Of a DNA stretch of 64,000 nt, positions 53,580 to 55,343 are shown one piece after another; the stretch's first letter is position 1; every line of letters starts with the position of its first letter. Under the pieces are notes generated by a model. It saw nothing but the letters and a program-made list of their open reading frames with translations. It did not search any database and had not been told where the DNA came from. The stretch lies in contig JACDOA010000002.1 of assembly GCA_017656335.1 (NCBI GenBank), forward strand, positions 310,001 to 374,000, read 5' to 3'. A program made the position numbers and the translations under genes. This DNA is from Thermosipho sp. (in: thermotogales). Lineage in GTDB: Bacteria > Thermotogota > Thermotogae > Thermotogales > Fervidobacteriaceae.

Positions 53580-53597
53580 AACTGGAAAGTTCCAGTT
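53580..53597 (+). promoter_or_regulatory. Perfect palindrome, likely operator
   Basis: AACTGGAA, spacer AG, TTCCAGTT: two perfect 8-bp arms. It ends 5 bp before the -35 box of the peptide promoter, where a dimeric activator or a repressor would bind. No known site is recognised. Confidence 0.65.
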
Positions 53598-53602
53598 GAA
53601 TA

Positions 53603-53631
53603 TTGACCTTTTTTTGAATATAATTTAAAAT
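53603..53631 (+). promoter_or_regulatory. Promoter of the tandem peptide genes
   Basis: TTGACC (53603-53608), 17-bp spacer, TAAAAT (53626-53631). The untranslated leader of about 70 nt contains ACAATA-ATTAA-TATTGT and ends in GGAGGGG before the first peptide gene. Confidence 0.7.
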
Positions 53632-53707
53632 TAAAACGTAAACAATAATTAATATTGTGATAATAATAGGTTTCATTTCTAAACAAATACAAAAAGGAGG
53701 GGAAATT

Positions 53708-53815
53708 ATGAAGAAATTATTGAGAAGGATATTCGTATTTGCATTGATAGCACTTCCATTTGTTATTTCAACAGTAGGGAATATAACACTTTGGCCAGGA
53801 AAATCAGGAAAATAA
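53708..53815 (+). CDS. Small signal-like peptide, copy 1
   Basis: 35 residues behind GGAGGGG at a normal spacing. The N-terminus is MKKLLRRIF (four basic residues), then an unbroken hydrophobic core to about residue 20, then a polar C-terminus STVGNITLWPGKSGK. There is no family I recognise. The layout fits either a secreted peptide precursor (signal plus a mature peptide such as ITLWPGK) or a small membrane toxin or protein. Copy 2 is identical except for one residue. Selection at the protein level is suggested by the almost entirely silent differences. Confidence 0.72.
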   Translation: MKKLLRRIFVFALIALPFVISTVGNITLWPGKSGK

Positions 53816-53862: not shown

Positions 53863-53970
53863 ATGAAGAAATTATTGAGAAGGATATTTGTATTTGCATT
53901 GATAGTACTTCCATTTGTTATTTCAACAGTAGGGAATATAACACTTTGGCCAGGAAAATCAGGAAAGTAA
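53863..53970 (+). CDS. Small signal-like peptide, copy 2
   Basis: Same 35-residue design as copy 1, with valine for alanine at residue 15 and an identical C-terminal 20 residues. Ribosome binding site GGAGGGG is repeated exactly. It is the copy next to the HD-GYP gene, whose own candidate promoter begins right after the stop. Confidence 0.72.
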   Translation: MKKLLRRIFVFALIVLPFVISTVGNITLWPGKSGK

Positions 53971-53999
53971 TTTTGAAATAATCGTTTTTGTGGTAAAAT
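53971..53999 (+). promoter_or_regulatory. Candidate promoter of the HD-GYP gene
   Basis: TAAAAT at 53994-53999 with TTTTGA 17 bp upstream (53971-53976), or TTGAAA at 15 bp. It lies between peptide copy 2 and the HD-GYP start. Readthrough from the peptide promoter is equally possible because no terminator is seen. Confidence 0.45.
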
Positions 54000-54038
54000 A
54001 GTTCTAGTAAAGAAAATAATAATGTGTGGTGGTTTTTG

Positions 54039-55343
54039 TTGCAGTTAGCTAAATTTAAATCTATATTCAAAAGATCTTTTGTAGAATTTTATACATTAAT
54101 GATTTGGACCATTTATATGGTCCTTATTTTTATAGAATGGAATAAGGGAAATATTGATTTAAAAAATGCCAGTTTTTGGGTTTTAACTTTGTTTTTTATT
54201 TTATTTGAATCGATGGCCGTGAGTTTTCAATCGTTCATTTTAAGAAAATTTGGAGAAGATAAAACGACGGAAATGCTTGTTAGTACAGGTGTTATAATTA
54301 GTGTTTTATCTGCTGCAATTTTACCCCCTTCTTTAGCAGTTCTTTTACCTTTATTTGGATATTTGTTTTTAAGAATAAAAATACTATTTAGTAAAAACTA
54401 TTACTATTTTTTATTTAATGTTGCTTCTTTAGGTATAATAACTTATTTTACCTCAAATTTTCTTCATCTGTTTTTTAATAAATTTGGTAATAGTTTGCTT
54501 GCGAGTACTATTTTTATAACAGCAGGTTCGATGATTTATTTTCTATTAAACCTTGGTCTTACTATTACTTTTTTATTTGCATTTTATGAGAAGATTTCAA
54601 AAGAAATTGTGGATTTTGTAATTGGAGAAGGAAGATTTTTTAACACTTTTTCCACTGCCGTTAATACTTTAATTGTTTATGTTTTATATACTTATATAGG
54701 TCTTTTTGCAATACCACTTTCTCTATTTACTTTTTTAACAATTCAACTTAGTAATTATTATTCAACAAAATACAGGAATGCAAAAATAGAACTTTTAACA
54801 GCATTAAGTAAAAGTATAGAAGAAAAGGACCCTTATACAGCAGGACACGGGGAAAAAGTATCGGAATTTGCAGTTAAAATTGGCGAGAAATTTGGTCTTC
54901 CAAAAAAAGATATTGATTTATTAAAAACGGCAGGTGTACTTCACGATATTGGCAAAATAGGAATTCCTGATTTTATTCTTTTAAAGAAAGGTAAATTAAC
55001 AGATGATGAGTATCTTATTATGAAGGAACATCCAAAAAAAGGATATGAAATATTAAAGCAAGTAAATGAATTTGAAGATACAGTAGCAAAATGGGTTTTG
55101 CACCACCATGAACGATGGGATGGAAGTGGTTATCCAGAAGGATTGAGTGGTGAGGAAATTCCTATTCAGGCAAGAATACTGACATTAGCGGATGTGTATC
55201 ATGCTTTGATAAGTGATAGGCCTTACAGATCAGCTTTATCTAAAGAAGAAGCAATTAAAATTATTCAGGAAGAATCCGGTAAGTTGTTTGATCCACAATT
55301 GGTTGAAATTATATTAAATCTTATAAGAGAGGGGAAAGTATGA
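54039..55343 (+). CDS. Membrane HD-GYP domain protein, likely c-di-GMP phosphodiesterase
   Basis: About 434 residues. Six to seven hydrophobic helices fill the first 240, followed by an HD-GYP domain. All key parts are present: AGHGEKVSEFAVKIG, AGVLHDIGKIGIPDFILLKK, MKEHPKKGYEIL, LHHHERWDGSGYPEGLSGEE and ILTLADVYHALISDRPYR. Such domains hydrolyse cyclic di-GMP to GMP or pGpG. The membrane part could sense a ligand; the neighbouring peptides are candidates (inference). The start is unsure: GTG at 54024 has no ribosome binding site, TTG at 54039 is 6 bp after GGTGG. The stop overlaps the DUF5317 gene by 4 bp. Confidence 0.85.
   Translation: MQLAKFKSIFKRSFVEFYTLMIWTIYMVLIFIEWNKGNIDLKNASFWVLTLFFILFESMAVSFQSFILRKFGEDKTTEMLVSTGVIISVLSAAILPPSLAVLLPLFGYLFLRIKILFSKNYYYFLFNVASLGIITYFTSNFLHLFFNKFGNSLLASTIFITAGSMIYFLLNLGLTITFLFAFYEKISKEIVDFVIGEGRFFNTFSTAVNTLIVYVLYTYIGLFAIPLSLFTFLTIQLSNYYSTKYRNAKIELLTALSKSIEEKDPYTAGHGEKVSEFAVKIGEKFGLPKKDIDLLKTAGVLHDIGKIGIPDFILLKKGKLTDDEYLIMKEHPKKGYEILKQVNEFEDTVAKWVLHHHERWDGSGYPEGLSGEEIPIQARILTLADVYHALISDRPYRSALSKEEAIKIIQEESGKLFDPQLVEIILNLIREGKV

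Follow-up and report, generated by a model that had tools for sequence, protein, structure and literature searches.

A conserved palindromic control site in Thermosipho and a candidate peptide partner of MASE9-HD-GYP proteins in the Thermotogae

In the streptococcal ComRS and Rgg-SHP systems a very short gene, coding for a hydrophobic peptide with a tryptophan-bearing C-terminus, is preceded by a palindromic operator, which in the case of the ComR box has a 5-N2-5 architecture. In the DbfQ-DbfS pair of Vibrio cholerae, a small exported protein directly modulates the membrane sensor that is encoded next to it, with an outcome in biofilm formation and cyclic-di-GMP (PMC12714742). For Thermotoga maritima, a peptide-based, density-dependent production of exopolysaccharide has been proposed (Johnson et al. 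2005, cited in PMC4187201 and PMC6022435). The passages of the two citing papers that deal with this putative quorum-sensing peptide name no receptor for it (PMC4187201, PMC6022435), and a proteome survey of 2018 reports no complete peptide system in thermophiles (PMC6022435). Neither the MASE9 domain nor a peptide partner of it is described in the literature that we searched.

The locus considered here lies in a window of 64,000 nucleotides from the genome of a Thermosipho species (G000), and the coordinates of its features are collected in Table 1. It resembles the ComRS and Rgg-SHP systems in combining a tiny hydrophobic peptide gene, a 5-N2-5 palindrome upstream of it and a W-bearing C-terminus, but the sequence of the palindrome differs and a membrane HD-GYP sensor is encoded adjacently. 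The cytoplasmic HTH-TPR regulator that defines RRNPP systems by its position beside the peptide gene was absent among the Pfam-scanned neighbours. With DbfQ-DbfS the locus shares a small, probably exported or membrane-anchored gene product that is encoded beside a membrane sensor and predicted to act on it; however, DbfQ targets a histidine kinase, whereas the neighbour in the window combines MASE9 and HD-GYP and is a clear member of the MASE9-HD-GYP proteins by the domains PF20972 and PF13487, and the small product has 25-36 residues. The putative peptide quorum sensing of T. maritima belongs to the same bacterial class, a comparison made by description and not by peptide sequence. Taken alone, the palindrome is an ordinary, known kind of regulatory site, and it is the class-wide pair of peptide and MASE9-HD-GYP protein lying under it that raises the interest of the locus: a tiny selected gene beside every MASE9-HD-GYP gene of the class, preceded in the window's family by a conserved control site, offers a concrete peptide together with a candidate receptor. 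If this is true, the MASE9 domain would gain a candidate ligand, and a peptide would be linked directly to cyclic-di-GMP breakdown without a histidine kinase.

Table 1. Features of the peptide locus (positions in the window)
Feature	Position	Strand	Remarks
Palindrome AACTGGAA-AG-TTCCAGTT, predicted operator	53580..53597	.	18-mer is the single exact match in the genome
Core TGGAA-NN-TTCCA, 12 bp	53583..53594	.	8/8 assembled family loci; 8 bp to the -35 box
-35 box TTGACC	53603..53608	+	TTGAC invariant in 8 genomes
-10 box TAAAAT, 17-bp spacer	53626..53631	+	consensus TATAAT in G010 and G012
5'UTR element TTGTGATAATAATAGGTTTCATTTCTAAA, 29 nt	53655..53683	+	almost the same in 7/8 genomes of the family; G006 has diverged
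Peptide gene copy 1: MKKLLRRIFVFALIALPFVISTVGNITLWPGKSGK	53708..53815	+	35 codons; family pN/pS 0.10-0.29
Peptide gene copy 2 (A15V)	53863..53970	+	35 codons; tandem ORF
Promoter-like stretch, extended -10 TGGTAAAAT	53976..54002	+	sequence; might serve the HD-GYP gene as its own promoter
MASE9-HD-GYP membrane protein, putative c-di-GMP phosphodiesterase	54039..55343	+	MASE9 8.9e-40, HD_5 3.4e-44
Terminator-like hairpin GGACCAT-TTAT-ATGGTCC with T-rich tail	54106..54123	+	within the HD-GYP coding region

A short-peptide family beside MASE9-HD-GYP genes

The two peptide genes of G000 differ at three bases, one of which alters an amino acid. Across the class the genes comprise 25-36 codons and are present in 1-3 tandem copies, each tandem copy carrying its own ribosome-binding site. 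In the consensus derived from an alignment of 30 members, a basic N-terminal segment (MKKLW or similar) leads into some 18 hydrophobic residues and then the tail AVGNxxxW, which in Thermosipho continues as PGKSGK or similar. The tail peptides are thus NITLWPGKSGK-like, and in Thermotoga GANKIW-like. Alignment and hydropathy thereby bring out the features of pheromone-type peptides, namely a positive N-terminus, a hydrophobic stretch and a conserved short C-terminal peptide, and the product is probably exported or anchored in the membrane. The pN/pS ratio of the peptide within genera or families, in a range that leaves out genus g1, is 0.10-0.29, and the peptide is therefore translated and under purifying selection. 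The 35-residue peptides are members of a previously undescribed family (MKKLW...AVGNxxxW). In G001 and G003 the assembly is interrupted within the peptide gene (L019, L021, L022), probably on account of the tandem copies, and the number of peptide copies in these genomes may exceed our count.

The gene that follows starts with TTG at 54039 or GTG at 54024. Its product matches MASE9 with 137.2 bits (cut-off 24.3) and HD_5 with 151 bits (cut-off 27.2), and the HHERWDGxGYP motif is present in the alignment, suggesting a putative c-di-GMP phosphodiesterase-like protein. The predicted structure of the MASE9 domain (pLDDT 54) was too poor to use. A short gene is located immediately upstream of all 42 MASE9 genes that were found in 103 genomes of the class, a count that includes G049, where a contig end leaves just its last codons. 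A profile of the family peptide recovered relatives in a second and a third family of the order, and inspection of the MASE9 loci gave the rest. The resulting 30-member profile matches at E below 1e-4 in 41 of the 42 genomes with MASE9 and in one of the 61 others, the latter being G036, in which the contig ends just past the peptide. Other matches to the profile are weak (E above 0.02) and located within different reading frames. The association of peptide and MASE9 corresponds to a Fisher p of 2e-26, without correction for shared ancestry. A search of plasmids for MASE9 gave no hit.

As the peptide adjoins MASE9-HD-GYP in every genome of the class that has this enzyme, it is a good candidate for a signal or partner of MASE9-HD-GYP that has so far gone unnoticed, and it probably acts on, or together with, the adjacent sensor. 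The earlier note had expected a signal or a toxin; both are predictions, and the strict pairing with MASE9-HD-GYP suits the former better than the latter. A type I toxin would be short, cationic-hydrophobic and present in tandem copies, as these peptides are, but the family is neither patchy nor mobile, being linked to MASE9 at 42 of 42 loci. Furthermore, a search of the peptide locus with Rfam for an antisense RNA antitoxin gave no match near threshold and so no convincing RNA, RNA families that are still unknown lying beyond the reach of Rfam. We consider a toxin highly improbable, and a signal or partner of the sensor remains the preferred reading.

In genus g5 (L024, L025, L026, L027) a pel-like exopolysaccharide cluster, which includes a GAF membrane protein and a DUF3492-GT4 PelF, runs divergently from the peptide promoter. 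This cluster was rejected as a core part of the system, as PelF does not follow the peptide: G000 is without PelF, and genus g3 has PelF without the peptide.

The palindrome at the peptide promoter

The earlier note had described a palindrome with a 5-nt gap to TTGACC, itself separated by a 17-nt spacer from TAAAAT, and had put its centre about 49 bp before the expected transcript start. Re-reading of the coordinates in the sequence agrees with this arrangement, and the centre, at 53588.5, falls approximately 49.5 nt upstream of a start expected near 53638. Symmetry by itself is weak evidence, because first-order Markov simulations of this AT-rich DNA give similar numbers of inverted repeats: perfect repeats with arms of at least 8 and a spacer of 0-4, some places being entered twice, number 24 in the window against 11-25 in six simulations, and those with at least 3 G/C per arm number 10 (7 distinct places) against 0-5. 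The genome-wide search that had been proposed as a check singles out this site, with one copy of the exact 18-mer in the 1.79-Mb genome and the next-best match one mismatch away. The core followed by N8 and TTGAC also has one exact match in the window's genome, all other matches being at two mismatches.

The comparison within the family covers the eight genomes with assembled upstream DNA; in G001 the region is truncated where the contig stops. The core is exact in seven of them and has a single changed base in G014 (ATCCA), and the invariant TTGAC is always positioned exactly 8 bp after it (8/8). The mean pairwise identity of the two half-sites is 1.00 and 0.95, as against 0.39 at the two central bases, 0.36 across the 8-bp spacer and 0.40 over the preceding 30 nt. 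The three outermost bases of each arm, as they stand in the window's genome, vary among the family genomes; hence the functional unit is 12 bp and not 18. This is the pattern of an operator, with symmetric half-sites kept while flanks and centre vary, and with a constant position relative to a sigma-A promoter in all eight genomes. The core is thus a phylogenetic footprint, a two-fold symmetric site whose position is fixed relative to the promoter, and the palindrome is a genuine control site that has been conserved. A role of this kind, according to the earlier note, would be refuted by close relatives with the peptide genes but no palindrome; in the family the site is kept at all eight assembled loci. 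Outside the family the peptide is retained without the palindrome, which is absent at the peptide loci of other families; the site is therefore a lineage-specific solution.

An overlapping pair, TTGAAT at 53596 and TATAAT at 53619-53624, receives an equal score from the promoter scanner (10/12). It was rejected as the promoter, and TTGACC/TAAAAT preferred, because TTGAC at 8 bp after the core is conserved in the relatives and the TTGAAT/TATAAT pair is not. In G010 and G012 the promoter has the consensus form TTGACA-17-TATAAT. The scanner also flags the palindrome as terminator-like on the - strand and comparable inverted repeats are present elsewhere in the window, so that one might take it for a reverse-strand terminator or a chance repeat. 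However, the relatives keep just 5-bp arms around a 2-bp centre, which is too tight for such an RNA hairpin, and most of them are without a T-run on that side; nor does chance sit well with symmetric bases that are retained amid diverging flanks. The terminator was rejected as incompatible with the conserved 5-N2-5 core, and the chances of either explanation are very slim as compared with those of an operator. Downstream of the promoter, the conserved element of the 5'UTR (53655-53683) differs between genomes in its distance from the -10 box, and it may be a second operator or an RNA signal.

The predicted regulator and other occurrences of the core

The best reading of the core is that it is probably bound by a dimeric DNA-binding regulator. 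With its centre near -49.5 and its spacing invariant, the core speaks for an activator in contact with the polymerase. Our preference for an activator over a repressor is only moderate, because the consensus promoters of G010 and G012 can do without one. Accordingly, of the dimeric activator site proposed in the earlier note, the dimeric-regulator site at the peptide promoter is borne out by the conserved core and spacing, and the activating sign is less secure, since consensus promoters fit a repressor too. A dimer lying against the -35 box as a repressor would shut out RNA polymerase from a promoter that is strong once the repressor is gone. This is in line with the consensus TTGACA-17-TATAAT of G010 and G012 and the TTGAC of all eight genomes, and the footprint of the dimer would extend to the edge of the -35 box. 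In contrast, an 8-bp spacing that stays constant across a diverged spacer sequence better suits a stereospecific contact, and in G003, G006 and G014 the -35 boxes at a second gene with the same site (see below) are poor. Operators for repression more often overlap the promoter or lie after it. Repression is thus a serious but somewhat unlikely alternative, and we retain activation as the preferred sign.

Pfam analysis of the tested neighbours (MASE9-HD, abhydrolase, DUF5317, glutamine synthetase) detected no HTH protein. Nor was a transcription factor gene found next to any of the palindrome sites, so that the search for the regulator by neighbourhood came up empty, and the text of a paper on Thermotogales regulons contains no TGGAA or TTCC string.

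In G003, G014 and G006 the same core also precedes a second gene, which is 417 codons long and belongs to no Pfam family; here it is placed 30-32 nt before the -10 box, as compared with 31 nt at the peptide promoter. G003 and G014, being 89% identical at this gene, do not count as independent cases, and in G000 and G002 the core is missing and another hairpin is present. Loci of this 417-residue family include L115, L135 and L144, as well as L163 and L164; the copy in G014 is interrupted by stop codons. Attempts to define a regulon through pattern searches were rejected: most TTGGAANNTTCCA sites are intragenic, the family-wide matches with two mismatches look like chance, and none of the inspected one-mismatch matches in genus g3 lies at a peptide promoter. 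In G006 only, TTGGAANNTTCCA occurs at two secreted starch-related genes (L085, L136), which code for a CBM-like protein and a GH57 protein, and is followed there by a -10-like box at a distance of about 33 nt. In all four genomes of one genus (L132, L142, L101, L154), TTGGAANNTTCCAAGGAG overlaps the ribosome-binding site of a murE-like Mur ligase gene, approximately 12 nt past a TATAAT, and could be either an operator or an RNA hairpin.

Downstream control elements and a model for the peptide

At the place of the promoter-like stretch that follows the second peptide gene, inspection revealed a TGNTA(A/T)AAT-like site in G001, G002, G003, G006, G007 and G012. The terminator-like hairpin that lies in the HD-GYP gene is retained in nine genomes despite differences in the encoded residues (WTIYMVL/GAIYMAL/GAIYLLL/GALYALL), and its register, on reading the sequences, has moved by a single base in G010 and in G014. 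It relies on rare codons, with a synonymous-shuffle p of 0.001-0.027 in each of the nine genomes, and would stop part of the transcripts beyond the peptide genes.

Taken together, we infer protein binding, activation, export, an interaction between peptide and sensor, and control of c-di-GMP. A dimeric regulator would sit on TGGAA-NN-TTCCA, its centre near -49.5 and the -35 box directly downstream, and would most likely contact RNA polymerase and raise transcription, the alternative being repression from the same position. The transcript is predicted to yield, from one or several gene copies, a very short peptide that has a positive N-terminus, one hydrophobic stretch and a conserved W-bearing tail, and that would enter the membrane or be exported through it. 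There the tail may act on the adjacent HD-GYP protein at its MASE9 sensor domain, altering the breakdown of cyclic-di-GMP, and in the Thermosipho family the intragenic hairpin would keep the output of peptide high relative to that of the enzyme. We lean slightly towards this joint model, in which the operator-bound dimer drives the peptide, the peptide tunes MASE9-HD-GYP and the hairpin sets the dose.

Alternatively, the peptide might serve the MASE9-HD-GYP membrane protein as a small structural subunit and not as a signal, which would agree with the strict one-to-one pairing and the single hydrophobic stretch. However, the separate, hairpin-limited expression and the repeated duplication suggest that dose matters, and the conservation of the tail extends past the hydrophobic stretch. 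These points make a structural subunit unlikely beside a ligand whose dose is set.

In families f2, f3 and f8 the peptide gene is flanked by complementary arms of 9-16 bp, the sequences of which are wholly different between families, and a scan of six f2/f3 loci gave no match in Rfam. These arm-bracketed ORFs are possibly a new RNA element. They also bear on the idea that the short genes are leader peptides (arrest or attenuator peptides), which would control translation or transcription of HD-GYP in cis and would have no function once released. A leader would always be directly upstream of HD-GYP and could have a conserved C-terminal W close to the stop, both of which are observed, and complementary RNA arms of changing sequence bracketing the ORF in three families would fit it as well. 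Against this stand the 1-3 tandem copies with individual ribosome-binding sites, the conservation of a charged N-terminus and hydrophobic stretch beyond the tail alone, and the promoter-like stretch that separates peptide and HD-GYP in much of the window's family. A leader function is hence decidedly unlikely, and we continue to favour a peptide that acts on the sensor. In its widest form, which we put forward tentatively as quite possible, the peptides would be secreted or membrane-displayed ligands of MASE9 in a class-wide peptide-to-cyclic-di-GMP signalling system of the Thermotogae, with the W-ended tail directly controlling the HD-GYP phosphodiesterase and the dose being set by operators in the window's family or by structured RNA in others. 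The arm-bracketed loci include L199, L204, L205, L171, L225 and L236, and AGCGGAG/AGCGAAG repeats are present in the 5'UTR.
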